Positions 5,939 through 43,462 of a stretch of DNA of 44,963 bases are shown piece after piece (the stretch's first letter is position 1; each line of letters begins with the position of its first letter). The translations under genes were made by a program, and so were the position numbers. The stretch is taken from NCBI GenBank assembly GCA_937942145.1, contig CALDFV010000029.1:1-44963 (forward strand). The letters are read 5' to 3'. Under the pieces are notes generated by a model. That model saw only the letters and a program-made list of their open reading frames with translations. It was not told the origin of the DNA and searched no databases. This stretch comes from an uncultured Opitutaceae bacterium (GTDB lineage: Bacteria; Verrucomicrobiota; Verrucomicrobiia; Opitutales; Opitutaceae).

Positions 5939-6004
5939 GTAGGGCGAAGCTGACTGTTGACTAAAGGTCTCTCAGTGGCGTATGGATCCTGACTTCTTGA
6001 TGGA

Positions 6005-6628
6005 ATGAGTGCCAGAATCGCAATTATCAATTATGGAATGGGGAACCTGAGGAGTGTGGAGAATGCCCTCCTAAAGGTGGGGGCCTCTCCGAAGATCGTC
6101 ACTAAGCCTTCCGAAGTTACCGATGTCGAAGGATTGGTGCTTCCTGGAGTGGGGGCCCTCGAAGATTGCGTCGACGGGTTGCGAGCATCGAATTTTGACG
6201 ATTTCATTGCGGGATGGATACAGGAAGATCGGCCCTTCATGGGAGTATGCCTGGGGCTGCAAGCGTTGTTTGATGTGTCAGAAGAGCGGCATGTGAAAGG
6301 GCTGGGAATATTTCCAGGAAAGGTCGTCCGTTTTGTTTCAAAGCCTGGGTTTAAGATTCCCCACATGGGTTGGAATACCGCCAAGCTCGAGCAAAATGAT
6401 TCTCCCTTCTGGGAGAATTTAGACAGTGAGAAGGAACGCTTTTACTTCGTGCATAGCTATTACGCAGTGCCAGAGGATTCTGAACTGGTACTAACGACCA
6501 CGGATTACGACGGCGTTTTTACGAGCTCGATCGCCCGCGCGAATACTTTAGCCTGCCAGTTTCACCCAGAGAAGAGTCAGGCAAAAGGGCTCCAGATATA
6601 CTCCAATTTCGCCTCGATTTGTAATTAG
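6005..6628 (+). CDS. hisH: Imidazole glycerol phosphate synthase, glutaminase subunit
   Basis: Supplies ammonia from glutamine to HisF in the fifth step of histidine synthesis. It is a 207-residue class I amidotransferase with IINYGMGNLRSVENAL at the N terminus, the nucleophile Cys82 in GVCLGLQ, and His187/Glu189 in CQFHPEKS. The oxyanion strand is LPGVGALEDC near residue 46. The usual partner genes hisF and hisA do not follow: citrate synthase comes next, so HisF must be made from another locus. It is separated from hisB by 66 bases with no obvious terminator and probably belongs to the same transcript. Confidence 0.96.
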   Translation: MSARIAIINYGMGNLRSVENALLKVGASPKIVTKPSEVTDVEGLVLPGVGALEDCVDGLRASNFDDFIAGWIQEDRPFMGVCLGLQALFDVSEERHVKGLGIFPGKVVRFVSKPGFKIPHMGWNTAKLEQNDSPFWENLDSEKERFYFVHSYYAVPEDSELVLTTTDYDGVFTSSIARANTLACQFHPEKSQAKGLQIYSNFASICN

Positions 6629-6769
6629 GACGACTCCTTTGCCTCTTAAGATCGCTAATAGTTAACTTCTAGGCGTGTCGTGCTTTACATCAGGCTACCA
6701 AGGAAATTAGTCTTACCCCCTCTTATTCGATCACTCTACATTCTTAGTAACTTACAAGCGCGAGATCTC

Positions 6770-8068
6770 ATGAGCAAACCGGCAGTCCTAACATTGGACG
6801 ACAAAGAATACGTTTTTCCAACCATCGAAGGTGTTGAGAATGAAAAGGCAGTTGATTTTCGGACGCTTCGTTCAGCGACTGGCTACATTTCCTATGACGA
6901 GGGCTATGGAAATACGGGATCTTGCCAGAGCGAAATCACCTACATCGATGGAGAAGTAGGAATTCTTCGCTATCGTGGTATTCCCATCGAGCAACTTGCT
7001 GACAAGTCGAGCTTCTTGGAGTCGTCATACATGATCCTGTACGGAGATTTGCCGACTCAATCCGAGCTGGACGAGTTTACAACTAGAGTTCGAGAGGGAG
7101 CTGCTGTATCGCCAATGATGAGCGACGCACTGAAAGGCTTTCCCCGCGACGCTCCTCCAATGGGCATGTTGGGATCGATGCTAGGCGCTATGAGCTGCTA
7201 CAATGCGAGCTTGGCTACCAACGACCGAGCCGTGGATCTTGAGCATTTCGACGAGGCGGCAGCTACAGCCATCGCCCAAACTGCGACTGCGGCTGCTCTT
7301 GGGTACCGTGTGACTAAAGGACTTGAGGGAAACCAGCCTGATCCCTCGCTCTCGTTTGGGGACAATTTCTTGCACCTAATGTTTTCCGAAAAAGGAAAGC
7401 CGTATAAAGCAATTCCCGAGGTGAGTCGGGCGCTTGATCTCATGCTGCTGCTTCATGCAGACCATGAGCAGAATTGCAGCACCTCAACGGTACGCATGGT
7501 GGCCTCGGGCGGAGCTAATTTATTTGCCTCCGTTGCTGCGGGTTGCGGAGCGCTTTGGGGACCGGCCCACGGTGGAGCGAACATGGCAGTGATTAAGATG
7601 CTAGAAGAGATTCGAGCCACAGGAGATGACGGTTCGAAATTTATCGAAGAGGCAAAGAGTGGTAAGAGTGGAAAGCGGTTGATGGGCTTTGGGCACCGTG
7701 TGTACAAGAACTTCGATCCACGAGCGAAGATTATCGGCAAAGCCTGCGAGGAGCTCTTGAACAAGCTGGGAATTGACGATCCTTGCTTAGATATTGCGCG
7801 TCATTTGGAGCAGGCCGCTTTGGCTGACGATTATTTCATTTCCCGCAATCTGTATCCGAATGTGGACTTTTACAGTGGTATTGTTTTGCGGGCTTTGGGT
7901 ATTCCATCGGATATGTTCACGGTGATGTTTGCCATCGGCCGTATGCCTGGCTGGGTGGCGAATTGGCGAGAAATCGCAATGAACCCGAAAATGAAAATCA
8001 ATCGCCCTCGACAAATTTATCAGGGACCTGCGTTGCGTGACTACGTGGCGATGGAAGATAGAGGATAG
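6770..8068 (+). CDS. gltA: Citrate synthase (type II)
   Basis: Condenses acetyl-CoA with oxaloacetate, the entry step of the TCA cycle. At 432 aa from ATG 6770 ([17 protein letters not shown]) it matches the hexameric bacterial type (E. coli 427 aa). The catalytic trio is visible: His267 in WGPAHGGAN, His309 in [15 protein letters not shown], and Asp366 in [13 protein letters not shown]. The N-terminal [19 protein letters not shown] and [18 protein letters not shown] are standard. An in-frame ATG at 6680 would add 30 residues unlike the family, so it was not used. The 141-base gap after hisH should hold its own promoter. Confidence 0.96.
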
Positions 8069-8137
8069 AATTTCGAATACTGTTGGGTCGAATCGAGTCT
8101 CTCAAAGCTTGCTAACTGAGCTTATTGAGAGTGGTCT

Positions 8138-9118
8138 TTGGGGGTGAAGCTTTTCTCTTTCGCGCTCATTGTCCTCTGCCTGGTATGGGGCGTCAATTGC
8201 ACCGGACCGAAAAACCCCGATTTTGAGAGATCATTTCACTTTTGCGTGTTGGGCGACATGCCCTACTACCTACCCGAAGACTACGAACGCTTTGACAATG
8301 TAATCGAAGCGGTCAATCGGGAAAAACCTGCGTTTACGGTTCACGTAGGGGACACAAAGTCGGGAGGTTCTCCCTGTTCGGATGAAACAGTGCAGCGCAC
8401 TTGGGACAGTTTCTCGAAATTTGATCATCCGTTGATTTATACCCCGGGAGACAATGAATGGACAGATTGTCACCGAAAAGCCGCGGGATCGATGGATCCG
8501 CTTGAGAGATTATCGGTCATTCGGGATCGATTTTTCGGATCGAGCAGGACATTGGGAGGCGGAACGCCCATTGAAATGAGTATACAATCTGCCGATACGA
8601 CTTGGGGAGATTATCCTGAAAATAGAATGTGGATTCGAGATGGGGTTGTGTTTGCCACCCTCCACATCGTCGGCAGCCATAATAATAACCAGCCTGATGT
8701 TCCTGGAGCCGTAGAAGAGTTCGTTGCACGTGATAAGGCAAATGAAGCATGGCTGGAAAATGCCTTTGCGAAAGCGCGGAATTTGGATGCCCCAGGCTTG
8801 GCGATATTTATTCATGGAAACCCTTTTGGAGAATTGGGAAGGGAGTGGAATCCAGGCTTTGCCCGATTTCTTGGGCAACTGCGCGAGCTAACGATCGCGT
8901 TCAGTAAGCCTGTTTTGGTGTCCCATGGAGACTCACACTATTTCCGTGTAGACAAGCCACTTATGCACGAAGGTACGGCTCGCGACAGTATCGAAAACCT
9001 AACCCGTTTAGAAGTCTTTGGAGCTCGAAATATGCATGGGGTTAGAGTCGAAGTGGAACCTGGATCAGCGCAGGTTTTCCGAATAAGCCAGTTGATCGTA
9101 GAAGCGAATCGCCGATAG
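8138..9118 (+). CDS. Secreted calcineurin-like metallophosphoesterase
   Basis: A 326-residue protein with a hydrophobic N-terminal export signal (FSFALIVLCLVWGVN, then a Cys near residue 21 in a poor lipobox context). Metallophosphoesterase motifs follow in order: LGDMPYY near residue 37, VGDTKSGGSPC near 70, PGDNEWTDC near 105, and the late His motifs FIHGNPF near 224 and SHGDSHYFR near 262. These form a two-metal site. The substrate is unknown. The start is TTG at 8138 or GTG at 8144, and both keep the signal peptide. It is convergent with the next gene, 24 bases apart, with no strong terminator between. Confidence 0.8.
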   Translation: MGVKLFSFALIVLCLVWGVNCTGPKNPDFERSFHFCVLGDMPYYLPEDYERFDNVIEAVNREKPAFTVHVGDTKSGGSPCSDETVQRTWDSFSKFDHPLIYTPGDNEWTDCHRKAAGSMDPLERLSVIRDRFFGSSRTLGGGTPIEMSIQSADTTWGDYPENRMWIRDGVVFATLHIVGSHNNNQPDVPGAVEEFVARDKANEAWLENAFAKARNLDAPGLAIFIHGNPFGELGREWNPGFARFLGQLRELTIAFSKPVLVSHGDSHYFRVDKPLMHEGTARDSIENLTRLEVFGARNMHGVRVEVEPGSAQVFRISQLIVEANRR

Positions 9119-32692: not shown

Positions 32693-34252
32693 ATGAGCGA
32701 GGACTATAATCTTGCCGAGCAGGGGCTTTTATGTTTCATGTTTTTTTTACAAATCATGAATCCTCTAAGGTCTGCACCAAATTTTACTCATTTGATACTG
32801 CGAGTATCTCTGGTGTGGCTTTGTACCTCGATGCCTGATTCTTCGGTTTTTGGATCTGAAAGAGTGGAGGCCTATTGGGGGTCTTTTGGCGAACGAAACG
32901 GACGGATAGAAGGGGCATTTCTAAAAACTGCCAACAGTGGAATGTTCATTGGTTTCGATGAAGAGTCCGAGTTGGGAGCTTTTTCTTCTCAGGTCGATTG
33001 GAATTCAGAGGGCGACTTTGTCTTTGGTGGTCTCGCTAAATTCAAAGGTTCTGACTTCCTCGTGCCAACTGCGGGAGTAGGTCGAGCTCTTACCCAGGGA
33101 ACCGATGTGATTTTAGAAAGTGGTTTTGTTGATTCGGATCTGCGTTTTGAATCCTTTGTTAGAACGAGTGCTCAGCTTGAGCACTACAAGTTGGAGGGTG
33201 AAATTGATGGAGAACTGTATCTGGTTTTGGGTGAGAACGACCTAAGTTACGCCTTGTTCATAGATCACTCAGGTTCAATTTTGGGAGGTACGTTGGAATA
33301 TGATGAAATCTCGGGACTACTCTCGTTTCGTTCCCAGAAGGGCGATCGATTCGAATTTCAAACGAGCTCATTGTCGCCACGCTATGTTCTGGCGGATGGT
33401 CGCCGAGGTGGATTACTTCAGGTAGCAAACGAGAATCAAGTCGATGTAGAGACGTCCTCCATTTACTTGAGCAAGGCTTGGAACTCCTATGTAAAGTCCT
33501 CCCAAAGTCCTCAGGATGGATTGCATTTCATAATCGAGGGAGAGGGAAGTATGCCGGTTGAGATACTGGCAGAACTATCGATCGACATCAGGAGCGTTTT
33601 CGATTGGGAAACTTTGAATTCCATCTCGATCGAGCTCTATCAGCTAGATGAGAACGATGAGTGGCGAATGTTGTTTCCCTCTTTGCCTCTCATACGCTCC
33701 AAAAACCCAGATGAGCCCGAGTTCAGCCTTTCATTGTCAGGTAGATTGGATGCTACGCTCCCTAGTGGCACCTATCTTGCAAATCTCTCAAACATCTTTT
33801 CCCTTTCTGCGGAAATCGTAACTCAGGCGCATTTTGCTCACTCCAATGACATCTTTGTGGTAAATGGGTCCACTTTCTATCAGAGGGATTCCCAAAACTT
33901 AGATCATCACTTTGGGTTCGAACTAGCCGGAGAGGGAGTTATCCAGGCTCTCGTGAGAAGCGTGGGGCCCGGTTTAGCGTATTTCGATGTTTCGGAGTGT
34001 ACGGAAAATCCGAATCTTTCCGTTTATCAGCATGGGCTGAAATCATGGAAGAATGACGACTGGGCTATTGCTGAAAACTTTGAAAAGTCTTCAGCGATGG
34101 GGGATCGGTTGGGAGCGTTTCCGTTATCGGAAAACAGTAAGGATTCGGCTCTCTCCCTATCCTTAGGTCCAGGTTCTTATAGTGTCGAGTCACGTAGGGG
34201 CTCTGATGATGCTGGGTTCGAGATAATCGAACTCTACTTGCAAACCGAGTAA
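32693..34252 (+). CDS. Secreted protein with C-terminal Opitutales-type beta repeat
   Basis: A 519-residue probably exported protein. ATG 32693 has the best ribosome site (AGGGGAA about nine bases upstream) but gives an unusual long N terminus. ATG 32756 would give a shorter form with the hydrophobic LILRVSLVWLCTSMP and likely cleavage near SVFG. The body (about 55-380) is beta-rich with paired strands such as YWGSFGERNGRIEGAFLKT and ISGLLSFRSQKGDRFEF. The last 120 residues match the repeat of the 23426 gene: GVIQALVRSVGPGLAYF, KNDDWAIAEN, ENSKDSALSLSLGPGSYSVE and a final IIELYLQ. No catalytic motif is seen. It likely belongs to the same surface-protein class and flanks the glycosyltransferase region on the other side. 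Confidence 0.7.
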   Translation: MSEDYNLAEQGLLCFMFFLQIMNPLRSAPNFTHLILRVSLVWLCTSMPDSSVFGSERVEAYWGSFGERNGRIEGAFLKTANSGMFIGFDEESELGAFSSQVDWNSEGDFVFGGLAKFKGSDFLVPTAGVGRALTQGTDVILESGFVDSDLRFESFVRTSAQLEHYKLEGEIDGELYLVLGENDLSYALFIDHSGSILGGTLEYDEISGLLSFRSQKGDRFEFQTSSLSPRYVLADGRRGGLLQVANENQVDVETSSIYLSKAWNSYVKSSQSPQDGLHFIIEGEGSMPVEILAELSIDIRSVFDWETLNSISIELYQLDENDEWRMLFPSLPLIRSKNPDEPEFSLSLSGRLDATLPSGTYLANLSNIFSLSAEIVTQAHFAHSNDIFVVNGSTFYQRDSQNLDHHFGFELAGEGVIQALVRSVGPGLAYFDVSECTENPNLSVYQHGLKSWKNDDWAIAENFEKSSAMGDRLGAFPLSENSKDSALSLSLGPGSYSVESRRGSDDAGFEIIELYLQTE

Positions 34253-34587: not shown

Positions 34588-36699
34588 ATGGTCCCACCAG
34601 AATCCGAACGTCCCGAGAAGGAGGAATCTAATTCTTCTAATCTCGAAAGTGAGGCTGCTTCCGATGTTGGAAGCAGTGCAGTTGGTAGTGGGTCATTTCA
34701 AGGCGAAGTGGATGAAATGCTGAACTCTATAGAGATTGACGATTCTGATGCAGAGGAAATTGAGCCTGCCAAGGGACTTGAAAAGGATGGGAAAGACCAG
34801 AATGCCGATTCTGAGGAACCGCAGATATCCGCTGCCGATGATCTCCTCATGAAGGCGGGAAGCATCCTGAATGGAGCATATACGGAACTGCCTGAGATCG
34901 AATTGGATTCGGAGACTGAATCTGACGCGGACGAAGATGGTCTGATGTCAATGCCCGACCCTCAATCACTGATGAGCGAGCTGGACGGAGATGCGGAATC
35001 GAAGCCAGGAACCGACGTATCTGATGAGGGTGAGCTGCTCGCTATGCCAGATCCGCGATCGTTGATGCAGGAAGCGAGCGCAAAAGTTGATGAGGCCGAA
35101 ACAAAAGGACGTGCCAATATTGCGGAACGTGCGGGAGACCTGCCTCCTCCACCTCCGGCTCCCGTAGCTCTGGAGGATGAAGAAATTGAGAGGGAGCTTT
35201 CAGGGGGGGATGGCAGTGCTCTCGAAGTAGAAGAAGAGGAGGAACAGGAAGATCCAAGTGAGCCAGAAGAATTCCCAGCTGAAAAAATCGAGCTCAATAA
35301 GAAAGAAGAGACGCCGGAAGAAGCTCCGACTACGGCCCCGGTAGTTGAGGAAGGAGTCCAGCCGGTTGATCCTGCTCGGGATGATCCAGTCGAAGAAAAG
35401 GGCGAGGAAGACTCTTCACTGGATGAAGACGATTCATTCTTCATGGACGATGAAGAAGATAATGATCTTCTTGTTTCGATCCAAGATGACTCCGAAAATG
35501 AAATTTTAGGCAATCTCTCAGGTATCTCCTCTGACGAACCCGGTGAGTGCCAGTCATCCTCCAAAAATGGCTTTCTAAAGACAGCAATTCAATCACTGCC
35601 ATTTGCCGCCGCCTTGGCGGTTCTTGGGATTGGCCTGACCGCTTTTAGCTTCAAGAACGAGTTTTTCGAATGGGCGGTGCACGGTGATACAAAAGGAAGT
35701 TCCCTAAGTCGCAGCATTGCAAGGGCGACTAACGAGCTCTTCGATCATCTCGGTCCGGATTCTCCCTACGAGATGGCTTGGATGGAGAGTGAAATTAAGC
35801 GGGTTTCGGATCGTGAGTTGCTCGTAGAAGTTCAAATTGGGGCGCAACTGAAAGTCGATCTTTACCAAGCTGTCGACGACGCAGTTCTTTATTCAAAACT
35901 CCCGTTTGACTTAGATGAGATAACCGAAGCTGCGAAGAACATGGAATCGATCGGTCGCGATGATATCTCAATTCCGCCAAAAAGATGGAACCGCCTCTAT
36001 AGGCATTCTGCGTCGAAGGGGGCGTTATTTCCCTTCAGTGTTTCCTACCGATTACTTAAGAGCAGTACGGACTCGAATTGGGAGATTTCGGGAATGAGGA
36101 TGAGAGAGGGCGAGCATGGTTTCGCCTGGTCTCGGGGCCACCCCAAAGCGTTTTTTGGAGAGAGCGCAATGGACATCAGCTCTAATCGATTTGTGATCTC
36201 ATTTAGAGCCTATGAAAAGACTGGGTTGGATTTTTTGAACAAGGTCACCATTGCGGAAAAAGAGTATCTCGCGATGTTGGACGAGGCCGAAGAGCAAGCC
36301 AAAGAGGAAAGGCAGGATCTGAAAATGTCACTGTCGCAAGGGTCGTATTTCAAAGGGATGGTTATCGCTGGCGACGAGGGTGCTGATGCGAGCGAGGTAT
36401 CATTGATAATAACCGAAACCCGCAATGATGGGGAAGTGATAAAAGGAGTGCTGAGACTTGAAAAGGAAGAGTCTTCGACAAAGCATTTCACGGGCTTTTT
36501 TGATGTTGTAGAGAACGAACAAGGAATTCAGGGAAGACTCGATTTGACGACGATCGCTTTTTCGGGGCAGACTTCTCTGGATGAAGTTCCTACATTCTTC
36601 AATCCCGGCACGGTATCGAGGATAACGCTACAGACGGATGGTTACCGAATGGAGGGAGATGCGGACGAACTGTCGCTAAGGCTCATTCGCAGCCTTTAG
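34588..36699 (+). CDS. Acidic single-span membrane protein with duplicated MPDPxSLM motif
   Basis: A 703-residue protein I do not recognise. Residues 1 to about 320 are low-complexity and very acidic (long Glu/Asp/Ser stretches, a Pro-rich DLPPPPPAPVA near 190), so probably a disordered cytosolic arm. It contains two near-identical motifs 31 residues apart: MPDPQSLM (122-129) and MPDPRSLM (153-160), each preceded by Leu. One membrane span follows (about 331-352, LPFAAALAVLGIGLTAF). The C-terminal part (about 355-703) is a periplasmic domain with mixed alpha/beta content, including a helical EYLAMLDEAEEQAKEERQDL near 560 and beta strands to the end. The topology suggests it binds a cytosolic partner through the repeated motif and senses or scaffolds outside. 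The function is unknown. Confidence 0.72.
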   Translation: MVPPESERPEKEESNSSNLESEAASDVGSSAVGSGSFQGEVDEMLNSIEIDDSDAEEIEPAKGLEKDGKDQNADSEEPQISAADDLLMKAGSILNGAYTELPEIELDSETESDADEDGLMSMPDPQSLMSELDGDAESKPGTDVSDEGELLAMPDPRSLMQEASAKVDEAETKGRANIAERAGDLPPPPPAPVALEDEEIERELSGGDGSALEVEEEEEQEDPSEPEEFPAEKIELNKKEETPEEAPTTAPVVEEGVQPVDPARDDPVEEKGEEDSSLDEDDSFFMDDEEDNDLLVSIQDDSENEILGNLSGISSDEPGECQSSSKNGFLKTAIQSLPFAAALAVLGIGLTAFSFKNEFFEWAVHGDTKGSSLSRSIARATNELFDHLGPDSPYEMAWMESEIKRVSDRELLVEVQIGAQLKVDLYQAVDDAVLYSKLPFDLDEITEAAKNMESIGRDDISIPPKRWNRLYRHSASKGALFPFSVSYRLLKSSTDSNWEISGMRMREGEHGFAWSRGHPKAFFGESAMDISSNRFVISFRAYEKTGLDFLNKVTIAEKEYLAMLDEAEEQAKEERQDLKMSLSQGSYFKGMVIAGDEGADASEVSLIITETRNDGEVIKGVLRLEKEESSTKHFTGFFDVVENEQGIQGRLDLTTIAFSGQTSLDEVPTFFNPGTVSRITLQTDGYRMEGDADELSLRLIRSL

Positions 36700-37501: not shown

Positions 37502-38296
37502 GTGTTGGAGTTTTCATCCGGTGCCACACAGTACGAATCTTGCCTGAAGATAGGGAAAAAAGCAAAGACCTATGTTCTCGATACAAACGTTTTGCTTCAG
37601 GATTCTCACTGTTTATGCAAGTTCGATGACAACAACTTAGTCATACTGATTGAAACTCTGGAGGATTTGGATGCGATAAAGATGGAGCAACCCAGTGAGC
37701 GAGGACGCGACGCTCGCCGCGTTCATCGTATGCTGAGGGAACTGCTTCCCGATTCGAGAGCAATGCTTGAAGGGGCTGTTCTGGATAGCGGAGGTACGTT
37801 ATCTGTTGTCATCAAAAAGTGCTTACAAAGTACAGCTAAAGTTCCCGCTAGGATTGCTTCGCTCGGATCTATTCTGAATTTTGAGAAGAAGGATAACCGA
37901 ATAATCGCAACAGCTCTTTTTGTGCAGGAGAACTTCCCTCCTCCAGCCATAATGGTGACGAAGGATATTAATATGCAGCTCAAAGCCCGGGCAGTGGGTC
38001 TCGAGGCGGAGGACTACCTCAATGACAAAACTACGGAGGAGCCCGATGACCAGAGTTATCGCCGTATTCCGGTTTCCAAGCACGATCCTCAGAGGTTTGC
38101 GTCTGAGGGTGAATTTGAGCTGTCCGAGGAATTCGCGAAAAACTTGGTGCTCAATGAGTATGTTTTGCTGGTTGCCGATGAGGGCAAAACGATGCGAGCC
38201 CGATTGTATAGCGAACGGACTCTTTGCAAGCGTTTGATTCCTAGTATGCTTAAAGCTCCAGGAGGAATTCCTATCCGGCTGCGAAACTTGGAGTAG
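37502..38296 (+). CDS. PIN-domain half of the split PhoH2 gene
   Basis: A 264-residue fragment beginning at GTG 37502. The PIN nuclease core shows TYVLDTNVLLQD near residue 23 with the first catalytic Asp, the acidic ETLEDLDAIK near 50, the ERGRDARRVHRMLREL helix near 66, and KKDNRIIATALF with IMVTKDINMQLKARA near 130-160, carrying later Asp ligands. AEDYLNDKT follows as in PhoH2 proteins. After a beta-rich linker it ends GGIPIRLRNLE at the premature stop. The catalytic acids look intact, so this half could still fold and cut RNA by itself if expressed. Confidence 0.7.
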   Translation: MLEFSSGATQYESCLKIGKKAKTYVLDTNVLLQDSHCLCKFDDNNLVILIETLEDLDAIKMEQPSERGRDARRVHRMLRELLPDSRAMLEGAVLDSGGTLSVVIKKCLQSTAKVPARIASLGSILNFEKKDNRIIATALFVQENFPPPAIMVTKDINMQLKARAVGLEAEDYLNDKTTEEPDDQSYRRIPVSKHDPQRFASEGEFELSEEFAKNLVLNEYVLLVADEGKTMRARLYSERTLCKRLIPSMLKAPGGIPIRLRNLE

Positions 38297-38317
38297 CAGT
38301 TTTTTCTAGACGCGCTG

Positions 38318-38980
38318 ATGGATGACTCGATTTCTCTCATTGCCTGTTATGGCAAGGCGGGAATAGGGAAAACTCTGCTTTCCACGGTCGCCGCAATTCA
38401 GCAAATCATCTCCTCAAACAGCCAATATGACGGGATTTCCCTTTCTCGCCCTGGAATTGGTGTGGGCAAGGAAATGGGGTTTTTGCCAGAATTCTTGGAG
38501 GAGAAGATGAATCCATGGCTTCAGCCTTACTACGGCGCTTTGGAGGTCTTGATTCCGTCAAAGCAGCCTAAAAAGCCTCAGTTTGAGAACAAGCGCCAAC
38601 GTAAGGACGCAAAAGAATCCCCGTTTGATCGAGATTCGGTTCAAAAGCCCTACCAGAAACTTCTCGATAGCGGTTTAGTGGAAATTGAGGCGCTGTGCTT
38701 TATTCGGGGTCGCTCAATCGCTAGGCGTTTCTTCATTCTGGGTGAAGCGCAGCAACTGACTCCCCATGAAGTCGAGACGGTGATCACTCGCATCTCGAAA
38801 GGGTCGAAAATAGTCCTCATCGGTGATCCCGCCCAAATCGACAATCCATACGTTGACTCGTGCAGCAATGGACTGGTCTATTGTTCTAATCGAATGAGAG
38901 GGCAGGCGATCTCTGCCCACGCACAGTTGACTAAGGGCGAGCGCTCGCCTCTTGCAGAGTTAGCGGCGGACTTGTTGTAG
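38318..38980 (+). CDS. PhoH ATPase half of the split PhoH2 gene
   Basis: A 220-residue fragment that could restart at ATG 38318, seven codons after the TAG and in the same frame. Walker A is GKAGIGKTLLS at the N terminus (38351 onward), with Ile where GKAGTGKT is usual. GFLPEFLEEKMNPWLQPYYG, EIEALCFIRGRSIARRFF, TPHEVETVITRISKGSKIVL, GDPAQIDNPYVDS and LTKGERSPLAELA match the family. Walker B reads LGEAQQ and lacks the Mg-coordinating Asp, so ATP hydrolysis is probably impaired. No clear ribosome binding site precedes the ATG. Confidence 0.65.
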   Translation: MDDSISLIACYGKAGIGKTLLSTVAAIQQIISSNSQYDGISLSRPGIGVGKEMGFLPEFLEEKMNPWLQPYYGALEVLIPSKQPKKPQFENKRQRKDAKESPFDRDSVQKPYQKLLDSGLVEIEALCFIRGRSIARRFFILGEAQQLTPHEVETVITRISKGSKIVLIGDPAQIDNPYVDSCSNGLVYCSNRMRGQAISAHAQLTKGERSPLAELAADLL

Positions 38981-39632: not shown

Positions 39633-41342
39633 ATGGGAGAATTGGCGATATTATTAATGACGCTCCGAAATTACAGTAATCGTGGGAAGATCGTAGGATA
39701 CCTTGTTTTGCTGGTCTTGGGTCTATTGATTATTGGAGTGGGCTGGATGATTCCGTCGAGATTCAAGTCAATACCTCGCTCGATACTGTCTGAGGCGGGA
39801 GCCCGATCAGAGTCCTTTGTTGATTTGGCCCAGACAGCCATCGAAGAAGAGAATTACGGAATCGCTGAAATGAACCTTGAGGTGGCGAAATTGAATGTGG
39901 CAGCCGAATGGGAGGTGCTTGACGAGATTCTGAGCCAAGCAAAAGAGGAAAACCCTGTATTGTACCGCTGGGGAGTTTGGGATCCTTTCTTGGATGCAGC
40001 CCTAAAAGATATACCCTTGTCTGATTACTCGGCTCAGCCTGGAATTCTAGGAGTTGGGTTGTCCAATGTTTGCCGTAGGTCTCTCGTTGGCTTGCTCGAG
40101 AATTCCCGAGATTCTACAGTCAAATCTCTTTTGGAGGCAGGTGAATTGAATACCTACAAGCGACTGTTCCCGGTTTCGAGCGTTTCGGGGAAGCCGCTTG
40201 AATCGACTCTTCTATCTATTGGTTTACTGATTCAGGGCGACCGATTGGCCCCGTCTCTGAAACGGGAGATAAGAAGTCGACTAGCTTCGGCTCTGGCTTC
40301 AGGGGATGTCGCTCCAGTGGAAGACTTTTTCCTCGATACATTGTCGCTGGCTCGAACTCTAAACTGGAGTCAGTTTAGGTCACTTTTCGAAAAAATTCAA
40401 GATTTGAATACGGTATCACGACTGAGGTACGCTTTCCATCGCAGATCCGACAAGGTCCCTCTCATTTTCGTGTCTTCGATCGTAGCAGAATCGCCCCAAC
40501 AGGTCATGGACTATTTGGGGTTGTATGGGGATGAAGGGATTGACGCACTTGAATCGGCGGTTTCCTTTGGGGCCGGAGCCGTGCAGATGTTGGTTCGAGA
40601 AAAACTGCCCCTGGAGCGTGCAAAAAGTGTAGCCGCGGTTTCTTCTTTTAAATCCTACTTGATTGGATTCAGCCTACAGAATCCAGGTTTCTCCTTAGTT
40701 ATTAAATATTCTCTGTTCTTTTTTGGGGCCTTGTTAGCGTTCTGGGGATCGAGCGGTTTGACTCGACGTTATTGGGAATCTAGCCCGCCTCTATTGAGCG
40801 TTGTGCAAAGATTGTTTGTGTCGCTAGCTTCGGTTATCATTCTCGTGGTTCTTAGCGAGCCTCATTTGGCTAGGGGCGACGCGTCTCAAGGCTACTCCTT
40901 TAAATTTGTATTGCCGGTACTCGCTGAAGTTGATGGCGAAACGATAATTGTCGAAACTGAACCTACCACATCCATGGAACCTACAACACTGCTATCTGTG
41001 TCTTTCTTTTTCATACTGCAAATATTGGTTTTCCTTATTTGCTTGTTAAAGGTGAGGCAGATCGAAAGGGAGGATATCGACTCGCTCGTTAAGCTGAAGT
41101 TGATGGAGAACGAGGAGAATCTGTTTGATTCGGGTCTTTACGTTGGAATAGCGGGAACCTGCATATCGTTGGTCCTGCAAGTGCTGGGGCTGATTGAAGC
41201 GAATCTAATCGCGGCTTACTCGTCGAATCTTTTTGGAATACTAGGCGTAGCCATTGTGAAAATACGATTGGTGCGGCCCTTTAAAAATAAGCTCATTATG
41301 GATAGCCAAGAGCGCATTGCGTCTCTGAGCTTAAAGCCATAG
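39633..41342 (+). CDS. Polytopic membrane protein of unknown function
   Basis: A 569-residue protein with one N-terminal span (about 19-41, GYLVLLVLGLLIIGVGWMIP), a long soluble helical region (about 45-340), and then about five spans clustered at the C terminus (near 347-366, 385-405, 452-475, 498-520 and 523-540). The last two form ALAGT-like membrane text (GIAGTCISLVLQVLGLI, SNLFGILGVAIVKIRLV), loosely recalling ExbB/TolQ/MotA channel helices, but the match is too weak to name. The start is ATG 39633 or ATG 39657; neither has a clear ribosome site. It lies 13 bases before the coiled-coil gene and is surely co-transcribed with it. Confidence 0.7.
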   Translation: MGELAILLMTLRNYSNRGKIVGYLVLLVLGLLIIGVGWMIPSRFKSIPRSILSEAGARSESFVDLAQTAIEEENYGIAEMNLEVAKLNVAAEWEVLDEILSQAKEENPVLYRWGVWDPFLDAALKDIPLSDYSAQPGILGVGLSNVCRRSLVGLLENSRDSTVKSLLEAGELNTYKRLFPVSSVSGKPLESTLLSIGLLIQGDRLAPSLKREIRSRLASALASGDVAPVEDFFLDTLSLARTLNWSQFRSLFEKIQDLNTVSRLRYAFHRRSDKVPLIFVSSIVAESPQQVMDYLGLYGDEGIDALESAVSFGAGAVQMLVREKLPLERAKSVAAVSSFKSYLIGFSLQNPGFSLVIKYSLFFFGALLAFWGSSGLTRRYWESSPPLLSVVQRLFVSLASVIILVVLSEPHLARGDASQGYSFKFVLPVLAEVDGETIIVETEPTTSMEPTTLLSVSFFFILQILVFLICLLKVRQIEREDIDSLVKLKLMENEENLFDSGLYVGIAGTCISLVLQVLGLIEANLIAAYSSNLFGILGVAIVKIRLVRPFKNKLIMDSQERIASLSLKP

Positions 41343-41355
41343 ACGGATAGTTCCT

Positions 41356-42816
41356 ATGAACAAGACTCTGCTATTGATACTTTGCGATTTCCTACTTCTC
41401 ACTCTGCTTTCCCTTGTGAACTGGGAGGAGGAGAAGGCTGAGAGTAGCAGCTCTGACATCGAGGATTCGGTAGACCAAAGCGTTTCAGCGATGGCGATGA
41501 TGGAGCAAGACCTCTTGGATACGCTAGCGTCGGCTTTGGAAGAAGAAAAGACGATCCAAAACACATTGGAATCGGAAGCGGACAAGGTGCGAAAGGAGCT
41601 GGAATTGAGGGATCAAAAGCTGCAGGAAAAGGAATCTTCCATCATGGATTTGGAAACCAGCATCCAGGAAGCCCAAACACGAGAGGAAACGCTTGCCCAA
41701 GAGAAGATGGCGATCGAAGCGGAGGCGCTGAAAGCGAAGCAATCCATTGTTACGTTGGAAAACAGTTACGAAGATCTCGAATTGAAATCGAAGCAAATGG
41801 AAGCCCAAGCTCGAATGCTCCAAGCGGAGCTGGAAGAGAAGCAGAAGGAGATTGATGCGAAACTTGCGGCCTTGGCCAGAGAGGAACTTGAACGCAAGGA
41901 AGCGGAGGCAAAAGTGCAGGAATTGAGTATCAAGGTATCTGTGACTGAAGAGCAGAAAAAGATGCTGGCAGAAAGTGTAGAGACATTGAAAAGCGAAGTG
42001 GTAGCGGAGAGAACCGAAAGACTGCAGCTTCAAGCTCAAACAACGCAAATGGCGGAGGGTATCACCCAGTTGGCGGAGCGATCGCAGGATTTGACGGAAG
42101 AGTTTCGCTCAAGCCAACCCATTAATGCGAACATCCTGTTCTCCCGGTTTAACGAGAACAAAATCGCGCTCACATTTAAGTCTAATCGGTTTTACCGAGG
42201 AGAATCGATCCAGGATGATGATTTGGCGATGACGCTATTGATTTCGGATGGGAAAAACGTATTCGCTTTGACCCACCTTAGCAGCACACCATTGGGGGCA
42301 AGCAATAGCTCGCTTGGCTTTAGAGAGCTGGAAATCGAAATGAGTCGTGGAGTAGCCCAGCTCAATCCTTCGCAATTGACGTTTCTGGCATTGGATCCAC
42401 GAATAGCGAGTGTCCCGTTAACGGATGATCAAGTGGGTGTTCTCGGTGGGGAAATTTTTTATACAGCTCTGGATCCTTTCAAGTTTTCCGAAGCCGTTTT
42501 GATTGACGAAAAAGGAAGTTACTATGGTGAAGTCGAATTCAAACTGGATGCGCGAACTCCCGGATATGTCAGAATGCAATCAAAGGTTTTTAGCCGTATA
42601 TTCGGAGACTTCTCTCCTACAAAAGGAGATCTTGTGTTTTCCAAAACGGGTGAGCTTCTTGGAATTATGGTAGATAGTCGGTACTGTCTCCTTGTCGATA
42701 ATTTGATGGGCAATGAAAGGCTCTCTTTGGGAGCTGGGTTTTCTAGTGACCAGTTTAAAGCTACGATTCAGTCGCTGAAAAATCGCTACGACTCATTGCC
42801 CAGTGATCTGCGTTAG
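41356..42816 (+). CDS. Membrane-anchored coiled-coil protein with beta-rich C-terminal domain
   Basis: A 486-residue protein with an uncleaved N-terminal anchor (LLLILCDFLLLTLLSLVNWE), a type of N terminus I recall from Verrucomicrobia and Planctomycetes proteins. Residues about 35-255 form a long coiled coil, nearly all Glu/Lys/Ala/Leu heptads. Residues about 260-486 are beta-rich. The end PTKGDLVFSKTGELLGIMVD near 428 recalls the last strands of trypsin-like folds, where a catalytic GDSGGP would be, but no catalytic triad is visible, so any protease-like domain is inactive. It probably forms a periplasmic scaffold with its neighbour at 39633. Its 3' end overlaps the convergent methyltransferase by 56 bases. 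Confidence 0.7.
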   Translation: MNKTLLLILCDFLLLTLLSLVNWEEEKAESSSSDIEDSVDQSVSAMAMMEQDLLDTLASALEEEKTIQNTLESEADKVRKELELRDQKLQEKESSIMDLETSIQEAQTREETLAQEKMAIEAEALKAKQSIVTLENSYEDLELKSKQMEAQARMLQAELEEKQKEIDAKLAALAREELERKEAEAKVQELSIKVSVTEEQKKMLAESVETLKSEVVAERTERLQLQAQTTQMAEGITQLAERSQDLTEEFRSSQPINANILFSRFNENKIALTFKSNRFYRGESIQDDDLAMTLLISDGKNVFALTHLSSTPLGASNSSLGFRELEIEMSRGVAQLNPSQLTFLALDPRIASVPLTDDQVGVLGGEIFYTALDPFKFSEAVLIDEKGSYYGEVEFKLDARTPGYVRMQSKVFSRIFGDFSPTKGDLVFSKTGELLGIMVDSRYCLLVDNLMGNERLSLGAGFSSDQFKATIQSLKNRYDSLPSDLR

Positions 42817-43462
42817 TTGGGGACTTCCTTCTGATCGTACTGGTCACGAGACCTTTCAATCGAGTCTCTCTGGAGATTAATTTAAGTGACTCGGGCCAGA
42901 CTAGTGTAGCAAGGCGATGCGTTTCAATATCCGTGGCCAGTCGGAAACAAAGATAGAGTAGCCCAACGATCCCGTTTGCTATCCATCTTGCTGGAACTTT
43001 TGGGGGAATCGTAAAATCCGCATAGATCAGTTTTCCGTTGGACTTCAACGTATGTGCGAATTTTTCAAGGAGAGCGTTTGCGTCGGTTGACTTGAAGCAA
43101 TCGAGAAAATACTGAGCCACGACACAATCGTATTCAGAATCTGGAAATGAATACTGGCGAGCATCGTTTGCGATGTGGCGATAGCGATTCATGTAGTTTT
43201 TTCCGAGCTTTTGAATACGCGCGCTTGTCTGCTCCTGCATTTTTGGACTTCGCTCGATGGAATCGATTTGGAGTTTTGGATTTTTTGCAAGCGCAAGGTT
43301 GAGAAAACGACCATCTCCTGGTCCCAGTATAAGGCATCTATCGCACTTGTCTGATCCAAGTGCTTTAAGTCCGTGATTTCGCGAGCGTTCCAGTTGGTGC
43401 CCAAACGTAAGTCGTTCGAGAAAGGTGTAGGCTTTCGCCAAATTATCAAACGAACGCTTCAC
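42761..43462 (-). CDS. SAM-dependent methyltransferase, class I
   Basis: A 233-residue Rossmann methyltransferase. Motif I is CLILGPGDGRFLNLALA near residue 43, the second acidic position is IDSIERSPKMQ near 66, and motif IV/V is EYDCVVAQYFLDCF near 109 with LKSNGKLIYADFTIPP near 138. The C-terminal part (AGLLYLCFRLATDIE-like stretch near 165-185) is hydrophobic, which fits a lipid or quinone-like substrate such as UbiE-type enzymes use. Substrate unproven. It is one base after the polytopic membrane gene on the same strand, and the stop lies inside the convergent coiled-coil gene. Confidence 0.78.
   Translation of the reverse strand: MKRSFDNLAKAYTFLERLTFGHQLERSRNHGLKALGSDKCDRCLILGPGDGRFLNLALAKNPKLQIDSIERSPKMQEQTSARIQKLGKNYMNRYRHIANDARQYSFPDSEYDCVVAQYFLDCFKSTDANALLEKFAHTLKSNGKLIYADFTIPPKVPARWIANGIVGLLYLCFRLATDIETHRLATLVWPESLKLISRETRLKGLVTSTIRRKSPTNADHWAMSRSDFSATES

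Follow-up and report, generated by a model that had tools for sequence, protein, structure and literature searches.

This analysis concerns two adjoining genes, here called A and B, in a stretch of 44,963 nucleotides (the window) that makes up positions 1 to 44,963 of contig CALDFV010000029.1 from an uncultured Opitutaceae bacterium. Gene A (39633 to 41342) encodes a six-span membrane protein of 569 amino acids, and gene B (41356 to 42816) encodes a protein of 486 amino acids with a single membrane span, a coiled coil, and a protease fold. Both open reading frames are intact and lie on the plus strand, as do all features of the two genes given below, and the gap between the stop of A and the start of B is 13 bases (41343 to 41355), as a preliminary description of the window had reported. 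Gene A may start at ATG 39633 or at ATG 39657, and most homologue alignments begin at residue 8 at the earliest. In a comparison with one genome of the same genus, A and B have ratios of nonsynonymous to synonymous substitution rates of 0.28 and 0.18, respectively, at a low divergence (proportion of synonymous differences, 0.06 to 0.08). The long open frames, the low ratios, and the conservation of the pair through the order indicate that the two frames are more than chance. The 3′ end of B (42761 to 42816) overlaps a convergent methyltransferase frame on the minus strand (42761 to 43462) by 56 bases.

Hydropathy analysis assigned six hydrophobic spans to A and a single one to B. Both proteins were modeled as monomers with AlphaFold2, using homologous alignments that drew on 58 and 57 of the 80 named loci introduced below, plus the window. 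The model of A has a mean predicted local distance difference test (pLDDT) score of 89 and a predicted template modeling (pTM) score of 0.80. It places helices at residues 16 to 39, 351 to 377, 386 to 408, 450 to 479, 500 to 517, and 525 to 567, where the first part of the last helix is the sixth span. The long soluble region noted previously corresponds in the model to an all-helical domain of approximately 300 residues between spans 1 and 2 (residues 49 to 349; 39777 to 40679), which is predicted to lie outside the membrane, in the periplasm. Residues 374 to 569 (40752 to 41339) form a four-span module, the sole part of A that is present in the short relatives described below as A′.

The model of B (mean pLDDT, 82; pTM, 0.50) is composed of a membrane-spanning helix (residues 2 to 20), a segment of low confidence (residues 22 to 49), two long helices (residues 49 to 196 and 211 to 251), and a beta-rich domain (approximately residues 256 to 479). 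The two long helices (residues 49 to 251; 41500 to 42108), a region that also matches SMC and coiled-coil models, account for about 190 to 200 residues, in agreement with the coiled coil of roughly 220 residues anticipated from the sequence. When fully extended, the modeled coiled coil would measure roughly 28 nm, enough to cross the periplasm.

A and B are conserved together, the opposite of the outcome that would have refuted the earlier interpretation. Among 57 relatives, A was found in 41 and B in 41, with both in 40 and neither in 15, so that only two are discordant. In the relative with A alone (G005, locus L077), A is broken by stops, and in the relative with B alone (G044, locus L066), the B-like domain has no span. 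The region in L077 (approximately 5978 to 8886), which belongs to the same genus as the window, contains A as a pseudogene and, in pieces, a protein related to that encoded at 32693 to 34252 of the window, and B was not found in it; this is a case of local gene decay. The genes are adjacent in 39 of the 40 relatives that carry both. The exception, G051, has A at 251611 to 253233 and B at 323092 to 324621 of contig C2, about 70 kb apart, and A there sits after a PNPase gene. Cultured carriers of the pair include Pelagicoccus mobilis KCTC 13126 (L096). A search of genome contigs confirmed 364 relatives, and the 80 loci listed among them are referred to as the named loci; all 80 carry titles that we take to denote verrucomicrobial groups. 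B lies directly downstream of A in 78 of the 80, with a 4-base overlap in 34 of these 78, and in the other two (L131 and L147) the contig runs out, either inside A or less than 235 bases further on. Some contigs occur both among the named loci and among the 57 relatives; the two sets of counts are therefore not independent, and rows were recounted as distinct sequences. Of the relatives of up to 2.3 Mb, 9 of 10 have neither gene, several of them being incomplete assemblies, and six larger relatives also have neither. Because the pair is missing from some genomes, the system looks dispensable.

Outside the order, the pair mostly occurs in a shorter form. In a sample of 288 genomes of the phylum, the A sequences of the order, used as a profile, matched in 99. 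In 23 of 26 loci outside the order, A is cut to its last four spans (A′; 171 to 226 amino acids as called), whereas the remaining three, all of family f30, have a long A. The helical domain at residues 49 to 349 is absent from the short A′ of the other families. A′ as a profile matched in 97 of the 288 genomes, with one match per genome, and recovered the end of the window's A with an E value of 4.5e-16. Since A′ equals the last four spans of A, the four-span module is considered the core of the protein. In 33 of 35 phylum loci, B or its counterpart B′ lies downstream on the same strand, at a distance of up to 115 bases in 32 of them and of 427 bases in L267. The two misses (L253 and L254) are N-terminal-only matches, which were dropped from the pair alignments and counted as misses; in further phylum loci, B or B′ follows A or A′ in 20 of 20. 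The C-terminal domains of B and B′ are homologous (hhalign E value, 2.4e-10; probability, 97%) with an identity of just 14%.

Most invariant columns of A fall in the membrane core. The residues that are invariant or nearly so in both A and A′ are Gln463, Gly505, Gly508, Thr509, Ala528, Tyr529, Ser531, and Gly535, located in spans 4, 5, and 6. Span 5 features a GxxGT motif (G505, G508, and T509; residues 505 to 509, 41145 to 41159), and in a set filtered at 75% identity T509 is retained in 67 of 67 long A sequences, whereas 16 of 19 short A′ sequences have T at this position and the other 3 have S. Span 6 features the motif AYSS[N/T]LFGI (A528, Y529, S531, and G535; residues 528 to 536, 41214 to 41240), and its TxxG position is occupied by N532 in the window's A, whereas A′ and deeper branches of the order have T there. 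The majority A′ sequence, PLYxGLxG[TS]V...AYSSTLxGI, compares with PLLGLLGTV...ALxTTAxGL in ExbB and TolQ of the same phylum. The motif positions are 22 residues apart in 42 of 43 distinct A′ sequences and 23 apart in 101 of the 103 distinct A sequences that fit the pattern (out of 106), versus 31 to 35 in 41 of the 43 canonical proteins that fit it (out of 58). The alignments A1 and A2 left out L077, with its pseudogene, and L066, and A1 also left out the A of L065. In B, Asp11 (41386 to 41388) is situated inside the sole membrane span and is Asp in all 166 rows of B and B′, 154 of them distinct, a count that left out L077, the spanless B-like protein of L066, and the B fragments of L129, L145, and L149.

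The C-terminal domain of B (residues 256 to 479; 42121 to 42792) has an HtrA/trypsin fold and is probably catalytically inactive. Its model aligned by VIA-align to 2w5e_A with a Z score of 12.5 (root mean square deviation, 3.3; 151 residues aligned); HtrA/Deg rows reached Z scores of 11 to 12, with 151 to 187 residues aligned among the matches listed. The best Foldseek match was Deg9, with an E value of 4.2e-6. In sequence comparisons, hhalign of the B and B′ C-terminal domains against 12 local HtrA sequences gave no match (E value, 0.56), and Trypsin_2 did not appear among the rows for the window's B and 10 other B and B′ proteins. The putative nucleophile position, placed by motif, is Thr422 in the window's B. 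Among 101 distinct B sequences this position is Ser in 69, Lys in 14, Thr in 7, and another residue (Asn, Gly, Arg, His, or Glu) in 11, and among 42 B′ sequences it is Glu in 26, Ala in 5, Lys in 3, Gln in 3, Asp in 2, Arg in 1, and Ser in 1, with one unplaced. In the same 101 B sequences, His307 is found in 92, Asp347 in 101, Pro348 in 99, and Arg349 in 100. The residue that follows this DPR motif, presumably the position of the catalytic Asp of HtrA, is Val, Ala, Leu, or Ile in 95 of 101. The active-site residues were assigned by motif, and a different alignment could make Asp347 the catalytic Asp. The trypsin-like end proposed earlier is borne out as a fold; its inactivity is likely, although the mapping of its active site is uncertain. 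The residues at these positions suggest that the tip of B is a pseudo-protease used for binding.

In family f26, a third gene is found downstream of B′ (in L233, L235, L248, L250, L251, and others), which encodes a Ser/Thr kinase with an FGE-sulfatase-like domain, of approximately 860 amino acids. It follows B′ in 28 of 30 f26 loci (11 of 11 and 17 of 19); of the two others, L272 is cut by the end of the stretch, and L286 has no kinase gene. Pfam confirmed both the kinase and the FGE-like domain in all four proteins tested, and hydropathy placed a membrane helix between the two domains in four of five checked. The kinase profile found no matching frame in the loci of the order, in 15 loci of other families (one of which, L249, is cut inside B′), or in L290, so the kinase is not a core part of the system. 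Its presence in f26 favors a sensing or signaling role there, alone or besides movement.

Searches of Pfam, NCBIfam, PADLOC, and Protein Data Bank (PDB) sequences retrieved no relative of A and no stator family for the A or A′ proteins scanned; clear homology to a known system, named beforehand as a result that would refute the earlier interpretation, was not found for A. For the window's B, there was no Pfam family, no PDZ row, and no enzyme or transporter family row above the cut-off. The Pfam, NCBIfam, and PADLOC rows that did appear for A, B, and their homologues, which in a Pfam scan of 38 B members were those listed for 25 of 123 families, are attributed to coiled coils or chance. Among these, the DUF2231, Neurensin, and MS_channel rows for A were short and below the cut-off and were rejected. 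DARPin rows for the C-terminal domain of B in the PDB sequence search (E values of at least 0.009) and designed-helix PDB rows for A′ also look like chance matches. The pair is not named in the entries listed by the literature searches, which is no proof that it is unpublished; the libraries used support its being undescribed.

A multi-span A, an adjoining single-span B that bears an Asp, and a rod of periplasm-crossing length are most economically accounted for by an ion-driven, stator-like unit. A and B may be a divergent stator-like ion channel or motor that works like ExbBD, TolQR, MotAB, and GldLM, a reading for and against which the chances appear evenly balanced, as they do for a motor-like function taken by itself. 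In such a unit, A and B would form one inner membrane complex in which several copies of the four-span core of A encircle a dimer of B, each subunit contributing its one span. Ions would move between Asp11 of B and the Thr/Ser sites in the last two spans of A, and the resulting conformational, probably rotary, work would travel along the coiled coil of B to the protease-fold domain, which may be near the outer membrane or the cell wall. The A proteins of this order would further supply a helical domain that surrounds the foot of the rod in the periplasm.

The resemblance to Tol, Exb, and Mot logic that had been proposed is strengthened by the invariant Asp in the span of B and by the ExbB-like motifs in the last two spans of A, but the signal from profile comparison is weak, and unbiased fold and sequence searches returned no ExbB, TolQ, or MotA. 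Unforced hhalign places the GxxG[TS] and [TN]xxG motifs of A on the ExbB motifs (26% identity over 46 columns; E value, 0.0024), with E values of 0.0024 and 0.0031 for the larger set and an overall range of 0.002 to 0.005. This signal appeared only once A′ sequences were added. Column permutation, run 200 times for each, never reached the scores of 27.1 (A′) and 24.7 (core); the highest permuted scores were 22.8 and 23.2, respectively.

Several results weigh against a stator-like unit. The ExbB target was picked by eye, which makes a single-comparison E value optimistic, the hhalign probability is just 7 to 14%, and the control consisted of column permutations. The A sequences of the order alone gave no hhalign signal with ExbB (E values, 0.23 to 0.37). 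PF01618 gave no row for 37 A members or 10 A′ proteins at E values up to 10, and neither PF02472 nor OmpA-like models gave a row for the B of the window and 10 other B and B′ proteins. PDB profile searches with A′ or A returned no ExbB, TolQ, or MotA chain, and Foldseek with the whole-A model returned nothing at an E value of 0.001 or below. VIA with the same model showed no stator chain among the matches listed, which does not exclude an unlisted family; its best row, an ABC exporter with a Z score of 6.7, was set aside as within the tool's range for common helical arrangements. The hairpin of spans 5 and 6 is about 11 residues shorter in A and A′ than in ExbB, a difference that would correspond to about three helical turns. 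Furthermore, the same genome has canonical copies, with 7 PF01618 and 4 PF02472 matches, one PF01618 protein carrying a MotA_N domain; since it keeps these, the A/B pair is regarded as an extra system. Given that no library or PDB-sequence search returned a stator family, that no stator chain was among the fold matches listed, and that the hhalign signal is weak, A is likened to PF01618 proteins in its working and is not filed as a member of that family.

A signaling or stress-sensing complex that involves no motor is possible, though we consider it rather unlikely. A would serve as a membrane hub and B as a rod-like sensor that binds a ligand in the periplasm through its inactive protease domain, with the signal crossing the spans, in one family to the kinase, and with Asp11 as a polar helix-packing or gating residue. 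The f26 kinase and its membrane helix fit this arrangement, as do the lack of significant motor homology in unbiased searches and the ability of DegS/HtrA-type domains to bind peptides. However, the kinase is no core component, being unmatched in the loci read from the order and from other families, and a packing residue would hardly be acidic in all 154 distinct sequences while its neighbors vary. A static envelope tether is improbable: the coiled coil of B, predicted to be long enough to cross the periplasm, and the missing enzyme or transporter family rows would suit a scaffold anchored by A, its tip gripping a partner in the outer membrane or cell wall, but this leaves unexplained the polar sites within the membrane (Asp11 of B and Gln463, Thr509, Tyr529, and Ser531 of A) and the clustering of the invariant columns of A in the membrane core. 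A membrane-anchored, active HtrA-like protease with a membrane cofactor, to which the fold and the retained His307 and Asp347 would point, is very improbable given a nucleophile position that is Thr in the window and Ser in 1 of 42 B′, the usually aliphatic residue after DPR, and the missing Trypsin_2 row.

The stator-like reading has an extended form, which we put forward only tentatively and hold to be on the doubtful side. A and B would represent a new class of ion-driven motor, spread over two or more distant verrucomicrobial lineages, with a captured and inactivated HtrA tip and with one family wired to a transmembrane Ser/Thr kinase, where phosphorylation would report force or envelope state. 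If true, such a sequence-divergent motor, built from a minimal four-span core of approximately 180 residues, a rod of coiled coil, and a tip with an inactive protease domain, would extend what is known of the loads that these motors carry. It would also provide structural studies with a compact core and would indicate that Verrucomicrobiota have an envelope process beyond canonical Tol and Exb.

Among 40 loci of the order, the neighbors of the pair include a homologue of def (peptide deformylase) in 35 and PIN/PhoH in 16; both were considered as conserved neighbors and are taken as synteny only. In the window, PIN (37502 to 38296) and PhoH (38318 to 38980) occupy two frames within 37502 to 38980, whereas several relatives have a single PIN-PhoH frame of about 497 amino acids (e.g., L042, 9538 to 11028, and L044, 3530 to 5020); the split in the window is a frameshift or an assembly error. 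Farther upstream, 34588 to 36699 encodes a protein of 703 amino acids with approximately 330 acidic low-complexity residues, one hydrophobic segment, and a soluble domain, for which there was no Pfam match. Its homologues are found in 9 of the 40 loci, mainly in the same genus and its nearest relatives.

To our knowledge, ion-driven 5:2 motors number only a few so far (Mot, Exb, Tol, Agl, Gld, and Zor). With ExbBD and TolQR, the pair shares the two-gene unit, the GxxG[TS] and TxxG-like motifs in consecutive spans of A, a partner whose only span is N-terminal and contains an invariant Asp, and the reach into the envelope. It differs from them in the lack of PF01618 and PF02472 rows for the scanned A and B proteins, in the motif spacing of A (22 to 23 versus 31 to 35), in the Ser that replaces Thr in some A′ and the N that replaces T in the window's A, and in having just about 20 to 25 residues between spans 4 and 5 of A. 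In B, the coiled coil and HtrA-fold tip stand in place of the ExbD/TolR domain. The likeness to MotAB and PomAB lies in the four spans of A′ (a predicted topology), two Pro residues that never vary (22 of 22), one where span 3 starts and one following span 4, and the Asp in B; in contrast, the scanned A and B proteins gave no MotA_N or OmpA-like row, and MotA_N occurs in a separate gene of the genome.

ZorAB of the Zorya system is reported to be a 5:2 complex used outside motility (PMC11890865). The nearest gene of nuclease or ATPase type to A and B is PIN-PhoH, upstream beyond def in the 16 order loci mentioned, which reads as synteny, and the single A′ match per phylum genome appears unlike a mobile defense system. 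PADLOC, which presumably holds ZorA and ZorB models, gave no Zor row for six proteins scanned. The S1C proteases HtrA, DegP, and DegS resemble B in the fold of residues 256 to 479, whereas in B the nucleophile position is not kept, a long coiled coil and an Asp-bearing span are attached, and PDZ gave no row. With GldLM and PorLM, of type IX secretion and gliding, B shares a long periplasmic shaft. NCBIfam, which we take to hold GldL and GldM models, gave no such row for eight proteins scanned, and the tip of B is a protease fold, unlike the domains of GldM. GldLM provides a precedent for a 5:2 motor that lacks obvious sequence homology and has a rod-like B subunit (PMC9389320).

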